Shown here: positions 7,415 to 17,080 of the stretch, piece by piece
Layout of the letters: the number at the start of each line of letters is the position of its first letter
Position numbering within the stretch: position 1 is the stretch's first letter
NCBI GenBank assembly: GCA_021732785.1
Contig: JAKFUG010000055.1
Coordinates: 1-64,000 of the forward strand
Reading direction: 5' to 3'
DNA: 64,000 nt
DNA from: Planctomycetaceae bacterium
GTDB lineage: Bacteria; Planctomycetota; Planctomycetia; Planctomycetales; Planctomycetaceae
Made by a program: the position numbers and the translations under genes
Notes under the pieces: generated by a model
Database searches by the model: none
What the model saw: only the letters and a program-made list of their open reading frames with translations
Told to the model about the DNA's origin: nothing

Positions 7415-8842
7415 TTATGCCACCACGCCGTGAATGACTTCGCCGTGAACATCGGTCAGGCGCATGTTTCGGCCACCAAAACGGTAGGTGAGCCGTTCGT
7501 GATCGAGGCCGAGCAGATGCAGAATGGTGGCGTGCAGATCGTAGAAGGATGTCACGTTTTCCACGGCTTGCATGCCGAGTTCGTCGGTCGCCCCGTAGAT
7601 CATACCGCGTTTGGCTCCGCCGCCCGCCAGCCACACGGTGAAGCCTTCGGGATGATGATCGCGGCCATCGCGACCCGCAGAATGGGGCGTTCGTCCGAAT
7701 TCGCCCGCCCAGACAACGAGTGTTTCTTCGAGGATGCCGCGCTGCTTCAGATCGCACAGCAGCCCCGCGATCGCCTGGTCGGTGTCGAGTGCGTTCTTTT
7801 CGTGACCGGCTTTCAGATTGCCGTGCTGATCCCATGTCCCATTGGACGCGCCGGGCGGGCAGGTGATCTCCACGAAGCGGACACCCGCTTCAATCAACCG
7901 CCGGGCCCGCAAGCATTGGGTGCCATACAATCGCTGCGAAGGAACTTTCGAATCGATGCCGTACATCGCTTGCGTCGCCGCGGTTTCCTGCCGGAGATCG
8001 AGCACATCCGGGACCAGCGACTGCATGCGATACGCCATTTCATAATTGCGAATGGCCGATTCGATGCCGTCGTCGTTGCCCAGCGATTGTGAGAAGCCGG
8101 TATCCAGTCCGCGCAGTAAACCGAGCTTTGCGAGTTGCAGCCGGGCATCTTTGTCGGCCGGTTGAATGTTGTCGATGGGCGTCCCATCGGCCTGAAACTG
8201 CGAAGCCTGATGACTCGCGGGCAAGAAACCGTTCGAGAAATTCTCCAGCCCGCCACAGGGTACAACGCCAAAACTCAGCACCACAAAACCGGGAAGATTA
8301 CGGTTTTCGCTGCCGAGACCGTAATTCACCCACGAGCCGAGACTCGGTCGCCCGGCGTTATTGGACCCGGTGTGCAATCGCAGCACACCGGTGGAATGAA
8401 TCGGCAGGTCGGCCTTCATCGAACGGATAATCGCCAGCTCATCGACGCACTGTGCCATGTGCGGGAACAAGCTGCTGACCGGAATACCGGCTTCGCCATG
8501 CTTCTGAAATGGCCACGGACTTTTCAACCACAACCGATTACCGTTCGCGGTCGGGTTTTTTGACTCGTTAAACGGCTTGCCATCGAGTTCGTCGAGTTTG
8601 GGCTTCGGGTCGAAAGAATCGGTATGGGCGACCCCTCCGTCCATAAAGCAGAAAATGACGTTCCTGGCCCGCGCCGGAAAATGCGGGGCAGAGAACACCG
8701 CCTCGGCAGTTGTTTCCGCGCGGGATTCGTCGGCAAGCATCGCCGACAGCGCCAATATGCCGAAGCCGTTCGCCGAAGCCGCGAGCAACTCGCGCCGTGA
8801 AAAAACTCCGCCGGTTCGACCGGGACAGCGGTGCGTCATCAT
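7415..8842 (-). CDS. DUF1501 protein, Tat-exported
   Basis: About 475 residues from the ATG at 8842. The N-terminus has a twin-arginine signal (FSRRELLAASANGFGILALSAM) followed by the DUF1501 start NVIFCFMDGGVAHTDSFDPKP, a sulfatase/alkaline-phosphatase-like fold. Conserved blocks include SWVNYGLGSENRNLPGFVVL, VWAGEFGRTPHSAGRDGRDHHP and the C-terminal HATILHLLGLDHERLTYRFGGR. It begins 16 bases after the stop of the cytochrome/DUF1549/DUF1553 gene, the usual planctomycete partner. The pair is the third and second gene of a GntR-led operon. Biochemical role is unproven; a periplasmic hydrolase is a reasonable guess. Confidence 0.92.
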   Translation of the reverse strand: MMTHRCPGRTGGVFSRRELLAASANGFGILALSAMLADESRAETTAEAVFSAPHFPARARNVIFCFMDGGVAHTDSFDPKPKLDELDGKPFNESKNPTANGNRLWLKSPWPFQKHGEAGIPVSSLFPHMAQCVDELAIIRSMKADLPIHSTGVLRLHTGSNNAGRPSLGSWVNYGLGSENRNLPGFVVLSFGVVPCGGLENFSNGFLPASHQASQFQADGTPIDNIQPADKDARLQLAKLGLLRGLDTGFSQSLGNDDGIESAIRNYEMAYRMQSLVPDVLDLRQETAATQAMYGIDSKVPSQRLYGTQCLRARRLIEAGVRFVEITCPPGASNGTWDQHGNLKAGHEKNALDTDQAIAGLLCDLKQRGILEETLVVWAGEFGRTPHSAGRDGRDHHPEGFTVWLAGGGAKRGMIYGATDELGMQAVENVTSFYDLHATILHLLGLDHERLTYRFGGRNMRLTDVHGEVIHGVVA

Positions 8843-8858
8843 GTCGTCTCGTCTTCGC

Positions 8859-11800
8859 TCACGGGATGTACACAAACTCTTGCAGGTTGAACAGAATATG
8901 GGCCAAATCCTGCCAGACTAGCGACGACTTCAACACGTCCTCGCTCGCCACGCCGCGCAATTGTGCGACTTCATTCAGCGCGAACACGAACCGGGCTTCT
9001 TCATCACTGCGGGGAGTACGTCCCAACGCCGTACGAAACATGGATCGCACACGCTCAATGGGGGCTATCTCGGCACTCGGCACCAGTTTTGTCGACCAGA
9101 CTTCCGCCTGTTGGATCACGAACGGGTCGTTGAGCAACGCGAGCGCCTGTGCCGGAACATTGGTGGCATCGCGACGCCCTTGCGTCACCTTGCCGCCGGG
9201 AAAATTAAACGCGCTCAGGAACCGCGGCGCTTCCATGAGATTGTTCTTGATGTACACGCTCCGGCGACCGTTGCCATCCAGGGGCCCGGGAAATAATCTC
9301 CGATCGGCGTTGGGAGTCTCGCGGAATGGTTGTACGCTGGGACCATACAATGTGCGATCCAACCGCCCGGACGTTGCCAGAATCGCATCGCGGATGGCTT
9401 CGGCTTCCATCCGCCGCGCGGGATAATGCCACAACAGACGGTTCTCGGGATCGATCTTCGCGCCCTCCGCAGAACGATGATCGGCGGACTGTTGAAACGT
9501 CCGCGTCAGCACCATCGCGCGAATCAATTTTTTGACGGACCAGCCGTCTTCCACGAACTGCGTCGCCAGGTAATCCAGCAACTCGGGATGCGACGGCAAA
9601 TCGCCCACGTGTCCAAAATCGTCCACGGATCGAACGATGCCCGCCCCAAACAAATGATGCCACACGCGGTTGACCATCACCCGCGCCGTGAGCGGATTAC
9701 GCGGGTCGGCTATGCGCTCCGCGAGTTCCAACCGACCGCTGCCCGGTGTGGCGAATGGTTCGCGCGATTGAGCCAACACTTCCAGATACCGCCGCGCGGT
9801 CGCCACTCCGGGGCGATGACAATCGCCGCGAACAAAAATGGGTTGATCGTAGCCGCTGCCACCGTCCGCAAGGCCGGGAGTCACACGTGGCCGAGGCAGG
9901 GATTGTTCGACTTTGCGGTATTCCTCGACGAGCGCAGCAAGCTTCGGCGATGCCGATGTCTGGTTGCGGAGAAAGCCATCTCGCAGGAACGTTTCCAGCC
10001 AGCGGACATCATCATCCGTCGCCCGGTGTTGAGCCCAGGCGCGGATGGCCTGCTCCATAATCTGCTGGTATCGGTTGGCGGCTTCCGCCATCGACGTGGG
10101 TACCGGCTCGGCAAAGAATCGCCGCAAATCGCTCAAATTGGCTTGCGGTGGTGCGGACGAATCATGAAAGACGGCTTGCGTGATACCCCACCACGACCGG
10201 GGATTTTCCGCAGCCTGATCCCACGGCAATTTGTAGTTCCCCGCGTCGCCACCCAATGCCGACAGTTGATCGGGAAACTTGGGGTTATCGAACATCGTCA
10301 TCAGCTCGGCATAGGTCCGCAGGCTCTCCGCGTCTTCCGGCGGCGAGAACGTGATCCATTGCAGCGACGACGATGTCAGCGCCCGATAGTTTTTGTAATT
10401 CAACTGGCAGTGATTCGACACCAGACGCAGCGCGCTGCTTCGTTCTCCCGCCACTTGAAAACTGACGTACTTTTTTCCGGCGGGTAACACCGGTGACCGT
10501 AACGTGCCGTTCAACCGCTCTGAAACCGATGAGGTAAAACAGCCCGCGGGAAAGACCGTTTTAATGACGGCGTCACCTGTATCATGCACCGCGAATTCAC
10601 CGCTCGGCGACGGTGCCGAGACCCCGAGTCCGCCAGCTTGCCAATCCGCGGGAATGGACGTGCGAAAGTCGGCCCATGTGGAGTAGTGCTCGGCTTGTGT
10701 CGTGCGCTCCCGATCCTGATCGGCATAGGTCGTCGCGGTTGCCGCCCACGTTTTCGCAAACTCGGCGGGGTTGGCCGCAACCAGCTTTCGCCACGGTTCC
10801 AGCGAGTCTTCGAGGGGGGCCTTCTCGACATTCAACGCGGCAAGCCACTTCTCCAACCGTGCTCCGTCCAAACCAGTCGCGAGGTCCTTCGCATCTGCGG
10901 CATTCGCTTTTTTCGCTGTAGCCGCGAGAACATACGCCGGGATGGTGCGAAGATCGTCCTGCCAGACCTCCGCGAATTCGTGGCGAATCGCGTCTTTTAA
11001 TTCGGCCAAGCGTTGCGCGGCGGCAGCAATCACATCGGGGGAATCGAGCGTGTGACTGACCAACCGCGAGCTGCGGAGAATACCGAGCAGACTGTAGTAA
11101 TCGGCCATCGAGACCGCGTCGAGTTTGTGATCATGACACCGCGCACACGCGATTGTGGTGGCCTGAAAAGCCTTGCTCAAGGTATCGATCTGGTTGTCGA
11201 GCAGATCGTATCCCAACTCCCGCAAGCTGATGCAGTCGTCATGATTCACTTCGCCGAAACGATAAAATGCCGTGCCAATGGGGGATTCACGAAATGGCGA
11301 TTGCTCGTTCCAGCGTTGTTTGGGCAAGAGATCGCCCGCGATATGCTCGCGCACAAACTGGTTGTACGGCAGATCGCCATTGAAGGCCCGGATGAGATAA
11401 TCACGATACTGCCAGGCATGGTGGACCTCGTAATTCCACTCATTACCGTGCGTTTCCGTAAAGCGGACTACGTCCATCCAGTGCCTCGCCCAGCGTTCAC
11501 CAAAATGCGGGGAGGCCAGCAACTCGTCGACATACTCCGCCACCGCGGCTTCGGGGAGTCGTTCACCGGGTGCTCCCATCCCGCATTTGTTGACGAGACG
11601 ATCCACCTGATCCACGGTCGGCGGTAAGCCCGTCAGGACCAGACTCAAACGGCGAGCCAGTGTTGACGCGCTCGCGGGCAATCCCGGCGGCAACCCTTGC
11701 GATTCTTGTTGAGCCTGGATGAATCGATCAATCGGCTCTTTCGACCAGGAAGTTTTTGCATCGGGAACCGCGATCGATTGAACCGGTTGCAAACTCCACC

Positions 11801-12278
11801 AGTCGCGTCGTTCCCGCAGGATCTCTTCCCAGTTCGACGACTTGTGTGACGGCGGTGCCACCTCGCGCGGATCAGGGGCCCCCATCTTCACCCACGCTTC
11901 CAGATCGGCAATCAGCGCGTCCGGCAGCTTCCCCTTGGGCGGCATATGTACGGAAGCCGGATCGAATTTCACCGCTGAAATAAGCAGGCTGGCTTCCGGT
12001 TTTCCCAGAGCGATTGACGGTCCGGAATCACCGCCCGTGCGAATTCCCTGCCTACTATCGAGCCGGAGATTCCCACCGATTTTTTTCGATTGCGGACCGT
12101 GGCATTCCAGGCAATGCTGTACGAGAATCGGCCGAATCCGCTTTTCAAAGAACTCGTTCCCCTCATCCTCAGCGCGAACGGAGAGCACGCTTCCCATGAC
12201 AGCCAGGCTGCTGATGATCACGCATCGCCATACTGATCGATCACGCTGATTCGTCGTGGGAACAATGTGGTGTTTCAT
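8859..12278 (-). CDS. PSCyt1-DUF1549-DUF1553 protein
   Basis: A 1139-residue exported protein. A hydrophobic signal (about residues 16-36, ending VRAED) precedes a planctomycete cytochrome c domain with the haem motif CLECH (56-60) and HMPPKGKL. DUF1549 follows (about 175-390) and contains a second motif, CARCHDHK. A long variable centre leads to DUF1553 (about 850-1100) with NPLTARVMVNRVWHHLFG and LPSHPELLDYLA. The start codon overlaps the GntR stop (ATGA at 12275-12278), so translation is coupled to the regulator. It is probably a periplasmic redox protein acting with the DUF1501 protein; its substrate is unknown. Confidence 0.93.
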   Translation of the reverse strand: MKHHIVPTTNQRDRSVWRCVIISSLAVMGSVLSVRAEDEGNEFFEKRIRPILVQHCLECHGPQSKKIGGNLRLDSRQGIRTGGDSGPSIALGKPEASLLISAVKFDPASVHMPPKGKLPDALIADLEAWVKMGAPDPREVAPPSHKSSNWEEILRERRDWWSLQPVQSIAVPDAKTSWSKEPIDRFIQAQQESQGLPPGLPASASTLARRLSLVLTGLPPTVDQVDRLVNKCGMGAPGERLPEAAVAEYVDELLASPHFGERWARHWMDVVRFTETHGNEWNYEVHHAWQYRDYLIRAFNGDLPYNQFVREHIAGDLLPKQRWNEQSPFRESPIGTAFYRFGEVNHDDCISLRELGYDLLDNQIDTLSKAFQATTIACARCHDHKLDAVSMADYYSLLGILRSSRLVSHTLDSPDVIAAAAQRLAELKDAIRHEFAEVWQDDLRTIPAYVLAATAKKANAADAKDLATGLDGARLEKWLAALNVEKAPLEDSLEPWRKLVAANPAEFAKTWAATATTYADQDRERTTQAEHYSTWADFRTSIPADWQAGGLGVSAPSPSGEFAVHDTGDAVIKTVFPAGCFTSSVSERLNGTLRSPVLPAGKKYVSFQVAGERSSALRLVSNHCQLNYKNYRALTSSSLQWITFSPPEDAESLRTYAELMTMFDNPKFPDQLSALGGDAGNYKLPWDQAAENPRSWWGITQAVFHDSSAPPQANLSDLRRFFAEPVPTSMAEAANRYQQIMEQAIRAWAQHRATDDDVRWLETFLRDGFLRNQTSASPKLAALVEEYRKVEQSLPRPRVTPGLADGGSGYDQPIFVRGDCHRPGVATARRYLEVLAQSREPFATPGSGRLELAERIADPRNPLTARVMVNRVWHHLFGAGIVRSVDDFGHVGDLPSHPELLDYLATQFVEDGWSVKKLIRAMVLTRTFQQSADHRSAEGAKIDPENRLLWHYPARRMEAEAIRDAILATSGRLDRTLYGPSVQPFRETPNADRRLFPGPLDGNGRRSVYIKNNLMEAPRFLSAFNFPGGKVTQGRRDATNVPAQALALLNDPFVIQQAEVWSTKLVPSAEIAPIERVRSMFRTALGRTPRSDEEARFVFALNEVAQLRGVASEDVLKSSLVWQDLAHILFNLQEFVYIP

Positions 12279-13075
12279 GACACGACTCCGCGGCGCGATT
12301 TCTCGGTACTGGCATTCCGGACCAGGGGTGATCGCAGACGGACACCTTTCGGTGGTTCTTGAAGATCCTGCAACAGGCTGTCGTAGGCGAGGCTGAGATG
12401 CTTCCGCATCGCCGTTCGCGCGCGGTCAGCATCGCCCTGAACCAGGGCCGCGTAGATTTGGCGGTGCGATCGATCGGTCACTGCCTGCCGCGCTGTGTCG
12501 CGCGGCACTTCAATCAAGTGCGGCCGCAACAATTCCATCAGCGACTGCTGTAGAGTAAACAGCGTGGTGTTGCCTGCGAGGCGGGCAATCTCCACGTGAA
12601 ATTGAATGTCGAGCTGCACATACTCGGACGCCTCACGCCTGGGATTCCATGCGAGCATTCCTTCCAGTGATTTACGCACCGGAAACAAATCTTCCAAACG
12701 CCGTCGCTCGGCCGCACGGCCCGCCAGTTCAATTTCAATCAACCGCCGGGCATCCAGCAGGTGAAACAAATTGTGCTCGTCGCGATGCAGCGCCGTGACC
12801 AGTGAATCGCTTGTGTTTGGGGTAACCACAGGTGAAGAGATTCGCAAGAAGGCACCCATCCGCGGACGGATGGTGACGAGTCCCGTCGTCTCGGCACGTA
12901 ACAGGGCATCCCGAATGACGGAGTGCTTGACCTGAATCAAATCCGCCAATTCGCGAATCGATGGCAATTGGTCGCCGTCGTGCAGATCGCGTTGCTGAAT
13001 GATTTTCCAGATCGCTTCCCACACTGTGCTGGTGTGGCGATCGCTTTCCACCGGCATTCCGAGTCCTGTCGACAT
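12275..13075 (-). CDS. GntR/FadR-family (FCD) transcriptional regulator
   Basis: About 266 residues from the ATG at 13075, which has AAGG 8 bases upstream; an in-frame start at 13141 would overlap the putative operator. The N-terminal winged helix (about 20-85) has the typical DGDQLPSIRELADLIQVKHSVIRDAL. The C-terminal FCD ligand domain shows D-x-x-FHVEIARLAGN and DRSHRQIYAALVQGD, the Asp/His residues that usually hold a metal and an acidic ligand. It heads the leftward operon and lies opposite the aldolase operon, so it probably regulates both and itself in response to an organic acid. Confidence 0.92.
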   Translation of the reverse strand: MSTGLGMPVESDRHTSTVWEAIWKIIQQRDLHDGDQLPSIRELADLIQVKHSVIRDALLRAETTGLVTIRPRMGAFLRISSPVVTPNTSDSLVTALHRDEHNLFHLLDARRLIEIELAGRAAERRRLEDLFPVRKSLEGMLAWNPRREASEYVQLDIQFHVEIARLAGNTTLFTLQQSLMELLRPHLIEVPRDTARQAVTDRSHRQIYAALVQGDADRARTAMRKHLSLAYDSLLQDLQEPPKGVRLRSPLVRNASTEKSRRGVVS

Positions 13076-13141
13076 CAACGGCACCTTCCGCAAGTTCGAT
13101 CGCCGCGGGCTTGCATCGCCGCGGCACATCGGTACCATCAT

Positions 13142-13233: not shown

Positions 13234-14889
13234 ATGAAAATCGCGGCCGTACAACGACTGCGTCGCAAGCTGGCTGCCGACCTTCCTGTCTGGGGGATGT
13301 GGGTGACGTTGGAGTCGCCCAGCATCACCGAAATGGCGGTGGCCCTCGACCTCGATTGGGTCGTCATCGATGCCGAGCACGGACATCTCGACTGGAAAGA
13401 GATTGTCGATCATCTCCGGGCGACGGTCCGCAGTGAAACCGTCGCGCTCGTACGTATCGCCGAACTCAACGGAGCGTTGATCAAGCGGGCGCTCGATATC
13501 GGTGCGGATGGAATCGTCATTCCCTGGGTTGAATCGGCGGAACAACTTCGACAAGCGGTCGCGTTTGCCCGCTATCCAGCAGAAGGAATTCGCGGGATTG
13601 GTGCCGAACGTGCAACAGCATGGGGGCAAGCGTTCGTTGAGCACACGGCGGAAGCCAACGAACATGTTCTCGTCGTGCCGATCATCGAAACGGTCCGCAC
13701 GATGCGGCAAGTCCCGCTGATGTGCAAAGTCGAAGGCGTGGAATTGTTCTTCTTCGGACCGGCAGATTATTCGTCGACGGCGGGGTATCGCGGCCAGTGG
13801 GAGGGGCCGGGGGTTGCCGAGCAGATTCTGCAAATGAAAGACACCATTCGTGCCGCTGGCAAACATTGTGGAGTGATTGCCACCAGCCCTGATAATCAGT
13901 GCGAACGCCAATTGCAGGGATTCCGCGCGATTGGGCTGGGCATGGATAGCGGCCTGTTGCTGCGATCGTTAAAAGGGGCGCTCGCGGCTGTCGGGAATGA
14001 TCGGCCGATTCGCGCTTCATTGATTCCGGATACGAAGCCCAGCGTGCCGCCGCCGTTAGCCCGCCCGACGGAATCCTTCCGCCCGGATCGCCCGGAAGTG
14101 ATGAACGCGGTGGGTGCCGGCCTGCGAACAGAACTGGCTCGCGGGGTCCAGTTTGAATGCCTCGTCGGCAGCCATAACCGGGCAAAACAACTGACAACCG
14201 GTTTCGTCACATTCGCGCCGGGAGCGATTCTTCCCCAGCATACGCACACGTTCACGGAATCCATCACGCTGCTCAGCGGCTCCATCACGGTCGAAGTTCA
14301 GGGCCGCAGTTACAACCTGAAAAAACTGGACAATCTCGTGATTCCCGCGGGACTTGCCCACTTGGCCAGGAACCCTTCGGCCAGCAGTCCCGCGGTTTTG
14401 CATGTCGCTTTGCCGACGGAGACACCGACACGAACTCTAACCGACACCTTCTTTCCGCGGCGGAAAATGCCCGATGATTCCACGGGCGTTCCGGGAAGTG
14501 AGCGGTGCAATCGCATCGCCACGGCTCGCCGATTCGCCGCCGGTCCCAATACGGAGTTCATCGATTGCTTCAACGAGACGTTGATGCCGGGAATCGAAAT
14601 GAGCGGCGGGTACGGTCTCTTCCAACCTGGGGGGCGGCTCCCCGCCCACTTTCATGATTTCGACGAATCGATCTGCATCATCACGGGTACGGCAACCTGC
14701 GTGGTGGAAGGCCGGCGGTACTCGATGAGCGACGGCGCTACCGCATTGCAACCGCGCGGGCGTGTGCATTATTTCATTAACGAATCGAACGGACCGATGG
14801 AGATGCTGTGGGTTTACGCCGGCCCAAAGCCCGAGCGGATCGTGGTCGATGAGCGATGTGCCACGGTGGAAGGAAATCCCTGGAAATGA
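13234..14889 (+). CDS. HpcH/HpaI-type aldolase fused to two cupin domains
   Basis: A 551-residue protein. Residues 1-255 are a class II HpcH/HpaI aldolase with expected catalytic and metal residues visible: D46, E48 and H49 (VVIDAEHG), R74 (ALVRI), E152 (PIIETVR) and D178 (FFGPADYS). Two cupin domains follow: about 300-395 with QHTHTFTESITLLSG and a later His, and about 435-540 with AHFHDFDESICIITG and a later His. Stand-alone aldolases are about 255 residues, so the bicupin tail is an extra. The next gene overlaps its stop by 4 bases. Likely a retro-aldol cleavage of a 2-keto-3-deoxy acid; the cupins may bind or isomerise a related sugar acid. Confidence 0.9.
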   Translation: MKIAAVQRLRRKLAADLPVWGMWVTLESPSITEMAVALDLDWVVIDAEHGHLDWKEIVDHLRATVRSETVALVRIAELNGALIKRALDIGADGIVIPWVESAEQLRQAVAFARYPAEGIRGIGAERATAWGQAFVEHTAEANEHVLVVPIIETVRTMRQVPLMCKVEGVELFFFGPADYSSTAGYRGQWEGPGVAEQILQMKDTIRAAGKHCGVIATSPDNQCERQLQGFRAIGLGMDSGLLLRSLKGALAAVGNDRPIRASLIPDTKPSVPPPLARPTESFRPDRPEVMNAVGAGLRTELARGVQFECLVGSHNRAKQLTTGFVTFAPGAILPQHTHTFTESITLLSGSITVEVQGRSYNLKKLDNLVIPAGLAHLARNPSASSPAVLHVALPTETPTRTLTDTFFPRRKMPDDSTGVPGSERCNRIATARRFAAGPNTEFIDCFNETLMPGIEMSGGYGLFQPGGRLPAHFHDFDESICIITGTATCVVEGRRYSMSDGATALQPRGRVHYFINESNGPMEMLWVYAGPKPERIVVDERCATVEGNPWK

Positions 14890-15923
14890 GCTTGTTCCGC
14901 GTGGTTTTGACGGCTGACTTTTACGATGACCGCGGGCAGACGAAGTACCGCGATATCGGGCTGAATGTTTTTGATTCCGTTTCGGATCGCTGTGAAGTCA
15001 CACGCTTCGCGGAACACCACCCCGAGATTGCCGCCGAGCAACTCGCGGATGCGCACGGAGTGATTGTCCTCACACCAAAGGTCACGGCGGCAAGTCTCCA
15101 GAACGGCGACAATTTACTGGCCATCGGCCGGTTCGGCGTGGGTTACGATAGCGTTGATGTCGCGGCATGCACTGCGGCGGATGTCGTCCTCTTCATTACT
15201 TCCGGAGCGGTGGACCGGCCGGTGGCGGAAGCGACAGTCGCCTGGTTGCTGGCGCTCACGCATCATGTTCGGGTGAAAGACCGCCTCGTACGCGAAGCTC
15301 GCTGGAATGATCGCAGCGGGTACATGGGATCGGAACTGCGCGAGCGGACGTTGGGCCTGATTGGGTTTGGCGGCATCGGTCGCGCCGTTGCGAAATTGCT
15401 CGCCGGATTCGGGATGAATCCCCCGCTCGTGTTTGATCCGTTCACACCGTCCGACATCATTGTCGAGCACGGTTGCCTTCCCGCGACACTCGAAACGCTG
15501 CTGACAGAAGCCGACTTCGTTTCACTCCATTGCCCACTGACCGATCAGACGCGAAATCTGATCGATCAGAGGCAATTGGAGTTGATGAAACCGACGGCAT
15601 ACCTCATCAACACGGCCCGCGGGGGGATTGTGAATGAGGATGCGCTATATGAAGCGCTGAAGACGAAACGGATCGCGGGAGCAGCGCTCGATTGCTTCGA
15701 CGGTGAACCCCTCACTTCACCGCCGCGGTTCGCCGAGTTTGACAACGTGCTGCTGGCGCCGCACTGTATCGCGTGGACGGACGAACTTTTCCGCGATATC
15801 GGCCGCACGGCGTGTCAGGGAATGATGGACCTGATGCACGGTCGAAGGCCGCGCGGCGTGGTGAATCCGGAAGTGTTCGATCGGCCGGGGTTTCAGCAAA
15901 AGTGGGCGAGATTGGTGCAGTAA
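14886..15923 (+). CDS. D-isomer-specific 2-hydroxyacid dehydrogenase
   Basis: About 345 residues from the ATG at 14886, which overlaps the aldolase stop as ATGA, so the two are translationally coupled. The Rossmann motif is LGLIGFGGIGRAVAKLL. Catalytic-type residues of the family are visible: Arg in NTARGGIVNE, Glu in DCFDGEP and His in LAPHCIAWT. The nearest named relatives are phosphoglycerate dehydrogenase and glyoxylate/hydroxypyruvate reductase; there is no ACT domain. In context it may oxidise or reduce a 2-hydroxy acid made or used by the aldolase. Confidence 0.9.
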   Translation: MSLFRVVLTADFYDDRGQTKYRDIGLNVFDSVSDRCEVTRFAEHHPEIAAEQLADAHGVIVLTPKVTAASLQNGDNLLAIGRFGVGYDSVDVAACTAADVVLFITSGAVDRPVAEATVAWLLALTHHVRVKDRLVREARWNDRSGYMGSELRERTLGLIGFGGIGRAVAKLLAGFGMNPPLVFDPFTPSDIIVEHGCLPATLETLLTEADFVSLHCPLTDQTRNLIDQRQLELMKPTAYLINTARGGIVNEDALYEALKTKRIAGAALDCFDGEPLTSPPRFAEFDNVLLAPHCIAWTDELFRDIGRTACQGMMDLMHGRRPRGVVNPEVFDRPGFQQKWARLVQ

Positions 15924-16027
15924 TTCTCTTTGACGAAGCCCGGTGATGTTGGTCTCTCATCCCTCTCGGGATCAAATTCAAAATGTTGGCTGAACGACGA
16001 CTTCTACAGCTTGAAAGGCCATCTCTC

Positions 16028-17080
16028 ATGCGGCAGCGCTCTCTGCTTTTGATGTTCGCGGCAACCACGCTTCTTACCCACGCGACCTACGCACAAACGC
16101 CGATTATCCCGGCGGATGCGAAGCTCGAAAAACTGTTCGAGGGACAAGTCCTCACGGAAGGGGTCAGTGTCGCGCCGGACGGAATGGTCTATTTCAGTGA
16201 GATCACGTTTTCCCACAAGGCGGTGGATGACAAAGGGGCGATTGAAGCCGGGCATATCTGGAAGTTCGACCCGGCAACGGGCAAGACCGCCATCTTTCGT
16301 TCGCCGAGCGGGATGTCGAACGGCATCAAGTTCGATGCCGCGGGGAACATGCTCGTTGCGGAAGGAGCCGATTATGGCGGACGGCGTGTGACGCGCACCG
16401 ACATGAAGACCGGCAAGAGCTACATCATCGCCGCGATGTATGAAGGCCGACCGTTCAATGCCCCGAACGATATTACCATCGACGAGAAAGGCCGCATCTA
16501 TTTCAGCGACCCGCGGTATTTGGGCTGGGAAACGCTCGATCAACCGGTGATGGGCGTCTATCGCATCGACACCGACGGCAAGATTGCCCGCGTTGTCACC
16601 GATGCAGGCAAACCGAACGGCGTGGCGGTCTCGCCGGACCAGAAGACGTTGTATGTCGTCAGCAACGAAAACGGGGCGACCGGTTTCGAACGCCTCAGTG
16701 CCAAAGGGGCGACGCAAGCCGACAAGGTCGACACGCCCTTGCGGAAGGGTCACATGGCGTTGATGGCGTACGACCTGTCACCGGAAGGGACGGCGAAGTT
16801 CCGCAAGACACTGGTGGATTATGCCCCGCAAGATGGTCCGGATGGATTGGTAGTCGATGCGGAAGGAAACTTGTGGGTCGCCGTGCGGGCGGAAAATCGA
16901 CCGGGGATTTGTGTCTATTCGCCCGAAGGAAAAGAGCTGGCTTACATTCCCACCGAGGTCCCGACTAACGTCGGTTTCGGCCGCGGTAAGGATGCGAAAA
17001 CGTTATACATCACCGCGGGATCGAGTTTGTATCGGATCAAGGTGAACCGCGAGGGATATCAGTTGCCCGCGGTGAAATAG
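16028..17080 (+). CDS. Secreted SMP-30/gluconolactonase-family protein
   Basis: About 350 residues from the ATG at 16028. A signal peptide (about residues 1-22, ending THATYAQ) is followed by a six-bladed propeller typical of SMP-30/gluconolactonase: LTEGVSVAPDGMVYFSEI, GMSNGIKFDAAGNMLVAEG, FNAPNDITIDEKGRIYFSDPRY and PNGVAVSPDQKTLYV, holding the Glu/Asn/Asp residues that usually bind divalent metal. Probably a periplasmic lactonase. It follows the dehydrogenase by 104 bases on the same strand and fits a sugar-acid pathway. Confidence 0.9.
   Translation: MRQRSLLLMFAATTLLTHATYAQTPIIPADAKLEKLFEGQVLTEGVSVAPDGMVYFSEITFSHKAVDDKGAIEAGHIWKFDPATGKTAIFRSPSGMSNGIKFDAAGNMLVAEGADYGGRRVTRTDMKTGKSYIIAAMYEGRPFNAPNDITIDEKGRIYFSDPRYLGWETLDQPVMGVYRIDTDGKIARVVTDAGKPNGVAVSPDQKTLYVVSNENGATGFERLSAKGATQADKVDTPLRKGHMALMAYDLSPEGTAKFRKTLVDYAPQDGPDGLVVDAEGNLWVAVRAENRPGICVYSPEGKELAYIPTEVPTNVGFGRGKDAKTLYITAGSSLYRIKVNREGYQLPAVK

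Follow-up and report, generated by a model that had tools for sequence, protein, structure and literature searches.

The window analyzed here is a 64,000-nucleotide stretch of planctomycete DNA (positions 1 to 64,000 of contig JAKFUG010000055.1). It contains an aldolase-bicupin fusion gene (13234..14889, + strand), which is a single open frame of 551 codons running from ATG to TGA without any internal stop. The N-terminal part of the encoded protein is a class II aldolase domain of the HpcH/HpaI family (residues 21-243; 13294..13962, +), and it is followed by a linker (about residues 256-284; 13999..14085, +), cupin 1 (about residues 297-400; 14122..14433, +), and cupin 2 (about residues 440-530; 14551..14823, +). 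The end of the fusion gene overlaps through ATGA with a gene for a D-2-hydroxyacid dehydrogenase of 345 aa (14886..15923, +), and a gene for an SMP-30/gluconolactonase-like lactonase lies further downstream (15983..17080, +). Upstream, a divergent gene encodes a GntR/FCD regulator (12275..13141, - strand).

Domains and conserved sites of the fusion protein

The aldolase half was matched by the Pfam model PF03328 (HpcH_HpaI; E 5.5e-31, 108 bits against a curated cut-off of 25), and its best PDB match was AbHpaI (7et8; E 1.6e-38 over residues 6-260). In the other half, Cupin_2 (PF07883) matched two stretches (E 1.5e-27, 95.5 bits against a cut-off of 27.2), with cupin 1 hit by Cupin_1, Cupin_7, and Cupin_2, and cupin 2 hit by Cupin_2 over residues 463-528. 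These domains and the single frame bear out the claim, made earlier in a sequence-only reading, that an aldolase and two metal-type cupins are encoded in one chain. The full length of the gene is kept in relatives, with full-length identities to the window protein as low as 56% among the fused loci, and chance is no concern for a 551-codon frame with recognized domains conserved over such distance. An assembly or frameshift artifact that joins two genes would find some encouragement in the stop and new ATG seen at the same linker in four loci, but an uninterrupted frame spans the fusion in 39 fetched loci, which come from many assemblies (three fused contigs were counted twice in this number, namely, L036/L069, L050/L149, and L053/L060). 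The fusion is therefore not a frameshift product; the artifact explanation is ruled out with a negligible residual probability, and the reality of the fusion is practically certain.

The metal ligands of AbHpaI are Glu151 and Asp177, with Glu46, His47, and Arg72 also being used, as described in PMC8560999. We mapped the window residues to AbHpaI through its PDB 7et8 alignment and took the residue roles from that paper. The counterparts are E48-H49 (E46-H47 in AbHpaI; 13375..13380, +), R74 (R72; 13453..13455, +), and the metal ligands E152 (E151; 13687..13689, +) and D178 (D177; 13765..13767, +), and all five were kept in 60/60 distinct aldolase domains. Their conservation points to a working metal aldolase, and we consider it very probable that the aldolase half is active. 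The domain scored far below the equivalog cut-offs for HpaI (TIGR02311, 165.4 against 368.8 bits), GarL (TIGR03239, 144.7 against 406.75), and YfaU (NF007521, 121.2 against 441), and by these scores it is a separate subfamily.

Each barrel of the window bicupin has a full 3His-1Glu set (H-x-H-x3-E...H). The two motifs quoted in the sequence-only reading, QHTHTFTE and AHFHDFDE, were located as H336-T-H338-TFT-E342 (14239..14259, +) in cupin 1 and H472-F-H474-DFD-E478 (14647..14667, +) in cupin 2. The fourth ligands, which that reading did not mention, are H376 (14359..14361, +) and H512 (14767..14769, +), and these complete both sites. Among the 53 distinct bicupins compared, the cupin 1 ligands H336, H338, E342, and H376 were conserved in 52, 50, 52, and 51, respectively, whereas all four ligands of cupin 2, together with W526 and Y528, were invariant (53/53). 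A damaged first site was found in only three of the 53, namely, L145, which is split, and the stand-alone proteins L157 and L158. A distant protein (L070) has lost its second cupin site; its match covered fewer than 200 residues, and it was therefore excluded from the tree and the ligand counts. Degenerate cupins without metal ligands are thus ruled out for the fusion family. The invariance of the second site, set against the damaged first sites, suggests that the C-terminal cupin may be the main catalytic one.

The structure model of the bicupin, built with 16 sequences, has a two-barrel fold (mean pLDDT 86.9, pTM 0.87). The whole-chain model is weak (mean pLDDT 77.9, pTM 0.49), with poor modeling of the barrel plus linker and low pLDDT over residues 237-282, and for this reason it supports no conclusion on domain packing or on whether the active sites face each other.

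Gene neighborhood

The gene context suggests a sugar-acid catabolic operon. The dehydrogenase matches Pfam 2-Hacid_dh_C (E 4.3e-57), and its best NCBIfam match is PGDH (237 bits against a cut-off of 454). The lactonase matches Pfam SGL (E 4.1e-37) and has an N-terminus that reads like a signal peptide, and the regulator matches Pfam FCD and GntR. The following counts are restricted to loci whose sequence extends 1.5 kb or more downstream. A D-2-hydroxyacid dehydrogenase gene follows on the same strand, no more than 4 kb away, in 23/37 fused loci (21/34 without duplicates), and in 22 of these 23 it lies within about 320 bp. The remaining 14/37 have no such gene downstream; they mostly belong to one closely related Schlesneria-like group with unrelated neighbors. 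The corresponding counts are 4/4 for split loci, 2/12 for bicupin-only loci (L146 has the gene but is uncounted since its contig ends too soon), and 8/18 for aldolase-only loci (a class in which L163 is listed, although there the aldolase and the dehydrogenase form one fused protein). Because the whole 6.69-Mb genome has only seven strong matches to this dehydrogenase family, we estimate, informally rather than by a statistical test, that this nearness is far beyond chance.

Other genes recur around loci of this family as well, including those for lactonases, NHL propellers, zinc-type alcohol dehydrogenases, SDR proteins, and GntR regulators. Within 6.5 kb, the SMP-30 lactonase was found in 12/39 and the GntR/FCD regulator in 8/39 fused loci. 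One aldolase-only locus (L164) adjoins a gene for a D-galactonate-type transporter (TIGR00893, 237 bits against a cut-off of 395) and an SMP-30 gene, and another locus (L165) has a weak 2-oxo-tetronate/hydroxypyruvate isomerase-like barrel nearby. The stand-alone bicupins of one genus lie beside a 2-hydroxycarboxylate dehydrogenase gene (PRK10098, 354 bits against a cut-off of 336) and have an SMP-30 gene nearby that is 41-42% identical to that of the window. The neighbors of bicupins thus include 2-hydroxyacid dehydrogenases of two unrelated families. Since lactonases, dehydrogenases (D-2-hydroxyacid, zinc-type, SDR, and Ldh_2), a galactonate-type transporter, and an isomerase-like barrel adjoin these genes, sugar acids are indicated, and a sugar-acid pathway is the moderately favored setting for the fusion. 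No sugar-acid dehydratase was identified among the recurring neighbors typed, such that a 2-keto-3-deoxy-acid route would be locally incomplete.

Genes for DUF1501 and PSCyt/PSD1 proteins also recur beside the fusion; in the window, one such pair (7415-12278) is located just upstream of the regulator. We set these aside as pathway parts because about 107 DUF1501 matches in this 6.7-Mb genome make nearness weak evidence. Two other genes, L050:9888-11354 and L084:6144-7616, are membrane-protein-like and are located near a lactonase or a stand-alone bicupin; they have no Pfam match at E <= 0.001, and by eye they resemble Nramp-type transporters.

Distribution and evolutionary history

The fusion was found across several planctomycete families. 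In a search of 59 relatives, full-length matches were present in ten genomes including that of the window, two of which have one internal stop (split). A scan of a genome collection found 21 loci, of which 20 cover residues 1-551 and one (L054) covers only residues 1-267. The latter lies in a 568-codon frame, and we considered an N-terminal fusion; however, its aldolase starts at an internal ATG aligned with those of relatives, and the extra part has no counterpart in relatives and was taken as a chance upstream frame. At the family level, 78/170 genomes gave a match, either full-length or aldolase-only, with the threshold set at E <= 1e-60. An even draw at the class level found bicupin matches in 78/397 genomes at E <= 1e-20, and by our count 52 of these 78 have the bicupin in an open frame of at least 540 codons. 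A draw across the phylum found matches in 8/392 genomes at E <= 1e-10, four in frames of 556-594 codons and four stand-alone. Two contigs titled Candidatus Kuenenia stuttgartiensis (L037 and L045) carry the Schlesneria-type fusion and group with Schlesneria-type genomes in the trees; these are probably mislabeled bins.

We sorted 77 loci by script into 39 fused, four split, 14 bicupin-only, and 20 aldolase-only, a non-random sample with loci picked for variety. The four split loci belong to one genus and have a stop in the linker with a new ATG two codons on in the same frame; the P-P-E-S-M-R-P-D-R stretch that follows this ATG is also found in many fused proteins. Either half may occur with the dehydrogenase alone: L144, L146, and L147 have the bicupin and the dehydrogenase without the aldolase, whereas L164-L166, L168, and L175-L177 have the aldolase and the dehydrogenase without the bicupin. 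A second and different fusion was observed at L163:6306-8240, in which the aldolase is joined straight to a D-2-hydroxyacid dehydrogenase in 645 codons, in an operon without a bicupin. Among 23 aldolase-only genomes, 22 have no bicupin anywhere at E <= 1e-15, the exception being G033. Among 16 genomes picked for a stand-alone bicupin, eight have an aldolase at E <= 1e-40, and in three of these eight it is only a 51-54% identical one.

In the bicupin tree, which was midpoint-rooted for drawing only, one clade of 44 rows (support 100/96) contains every fused, split, and recently separated bicupin, and the stand-alone families fall outside. The fused L063 and L153 branch outside the split group, and in the aldolase tree, the aldolase-only rows are scattered among the fused rows. 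Given the positions of L063 and L153, the simplest reading is one fusion followed by splitting and aldolase loss, with readings of both trees depending on the root and many inner forks being open.

Predicted function and comparison with known systems

The window protein is likely a two-step enzyme acting on keto or hydroxy sugar acids. In the first step, which is well supported by residues, the HpaI-type metal aldolase would cleave a 4-hydroxy-2-oxo acid to give an aldehyde along with either pyruvate or hydroxypyruvate, or would catalyze the reverse. The second step would be carried out by the bicupin, whose C-terminal cupin would bind a divalent metal at the main catalytic site and whose N-terminal cupin would bind another metal. 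Its substrate would be an intermediate, either a 2-oxo acid or a hydroxy-aldehyde, and the conversion would most likely proceed through metal-assisted enolization (isomerization or epimerization). The product could then be handed to the D-2-hydroxyacid dehydrogenase encoded next door, the SMP-30 lactonase may supply the aldonate, and the covalent link would hold two pathway enzymes together in equal amounts. This overall scheme, with a two-step enzyme encoded in a planctomycete operon for sugar-acid catabolism, is our best explanation, and we give it a little less than even confidence.

Whether the bicupin half is catalytic at all deserves consideration. Cupin_2 domains in regulators often bind ligands, and the AraC_binding and PuuR models weakly matched the bicupin here. 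The bicupin could be a domain that binds a ligand or a metal without catalyzing a reaction and serves to regulate or stabilize the aldolase; this would also fit the many lineages in which the aldolase does without a bicupin. However, some bicupins have no close aldolase and are encoded in operons alongside dehydrogenases and lactonases, such that a role as an aldolase appendage cannot be general, and the second cupin strictly conserves its four ligands as well as W526 and Y528. We therefore regard such a binding role as rather unlikely, and a metalloenzyme rather than a binding domain as the probable nature of the bicupin.

As for the reaction, 3His-1Glu sites suit Mn or Fe. The best fold matches were oxalate decarboxylase OxdC (VIA Z 26.4, rmsd 3.5, 253 residues, 15% identity) and quercetinase YxaG (VIA Z 26.1, rmsd 2.6, 250 residues, 17% identity), and the latter also ranked first in phmmer and profile searches. 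These matches would agree with an oxalate decarboxylase- or quercetinase-like lyase, decarboxylase, or oxygenase whose substrate would be the 2-oxo acid released or consumed by the aldolase. Nevertheless, the identities are low, the neighbors are dehydrogenases and lactonases rather than ring-cleavage or oxalate genes, and seed storage globulins, which lack such activity, score about as high (about Z 24.5), such that the reaction is not readable from the fold. The bicupin fell below every NCBIfam equivalog cut-off that it encountered, and no oxalate decarboxylase or quercetinase equivalog model was among the NCBIfam matches listed for it, the fold being shared with both enzymes. The superposition on YlbA (1rc6) gave Z 24.0 with 12% identity, whereas no family model for (S)-ureidoglycine aminohydrolase (YlbA/AllE) was matched in Pfam or NCBIfam. 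In the PDB profile search, KdgF, a uronate ring-opening cupin, was matched only at E 0.031. We did not adopt a direct assignment to KdgF, YlbA, oxalate decarboxylase, or quercetinase, for which there were only fold similarities or weak sequence matches. Lyase, decarboxylase, or oxygenase chemistry of this kind appears to us a minority possibility.

Returning to isomerization, the recurrence of bicupins beside 2-hydroxyacid dehydrogenases of two unrelated families places their substrate near a 2-oxo or 2-hydroxy acid; the isomerization itself is a guess, and an isomerase or epimerase specifically is a tentative assignment that we would sooner doubt than accept. Hydroxypyruvate is a substrate that SwHKA, which belongs to the same aldolase family, can accept (PMC10099721), and therefore a route through hydroxypyruvate is possible. 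More speculatively still, the bicupin may be a new keto-acid isomerase/epimerase that acts with the aldolase and the D-2-hydroxyacid dehydrogenase in a dehydratase-free planctomycete sugar-acid route, in which an aldonate is oxidized at C2, isomerized, and cleaved to hydroxypyruvate and an aldehyde, with the genes fused in different pairings.

The sequence-only reading had proposed that the fusion channels the aldol product to a metal-dependent step. A second metal-dependent step is plausible given the full ligand sets and the dehydrogenase and lactonase neighbors. The part that did not hold is the need of the fusion for channeling, since the two genes are separate and adjacent in the four split loci and each half occurs alone elsewhere. 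The retention of the fusion in several planctomycete families speaks for a direct transfer from the aldolase barrel to the cupin, but this dispersal of the halves and the low-confidence linker of the model, which says nothing on facing sites, make true channeling improbable. Because lineages have split the fusion or kept one half only, the covalent link is not required, and obligatory channeling is not supported. Since its parts are also encoded by separate genes, the protein appears to be a modular enzyme for degrading sugar acids and not a novel type of machine.

Each domain comes from a known family, and no published description of this aldolase-bicupin fusion was found in the open-license PMC literature. 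The fusion alters no general principle. Nonetheless, the domain pairing connects a class II aldolase and a 2-hydroxyacid dehydrogenase with a bicupin family that is still an orphan, which provides a testable functional lead in planctomycetes, a group with many little-understood genes for lactonases, DUF1501 proteins, and cytochromes. Moreover, fusion, splitting, and loss within one operon represent a natural experiment on whether enzyme fusion matters.

Compared with known systems, the aldolase half belongs to the same TIM-barrel family as HpaI/4-hydroxy-2-oxoheptanedioate aldolases (AbHpaI 7et8, EcHpaI 2v5j, and SwHKA 6r62) and has the metal, base, and arginine residues in common with them. 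Those enzymes are about 250-290 aa and lack cupins, whereas the window protein has two. Also, the 2v5j motif V-Q-I-E-T has Gln at a position that is hydrophobic in all 22 sequences aligned (I150 in the window protein) and is I, L, M, or V in 60/60 aldolase domains.

Single cupins encoded on proteobacterial and actinobacterial plasmids (for example, WP_180727258.1 and WP_065493405.1) are 30-38% identical to either window cupin and have in common with them an ending of the type M-x-I-x-W-x-Y-A. Unlike the window bicupin, these have one cupin per protein and are unfused. Several of them (H1, H2, and H7) adjoin Ldh-family and succinate-semialdehyde dehydrogenase genes, and a recurring set of such a cupin with genes for an Ldh-family oxidoreductase, a succinate-semialdehyde dehydrogenase, and small monooxygenase-like proteins was observed at L079, L080, and L082. 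An R. opacus plasmid operon (cupin, lactonase, aldolase/citrate lyase, and GntR) was rejected as a counterpart, the resemblance being by name only; its lactonase and "aldolase/citrate lyase family" neighbor have no match to the proteins of the window.

The closest structural likeness of the bicupin half is to OxdC, YxaG, and YlbA, which also have two cupin barrels per chain and 3His-1Glu sites and superpose over the full length at Z 24-26. At identities of 15-17% to OxdC and YxaG and 12% to YlbA, the window bicupin differs from these proteins by its fusion to an aldolase.
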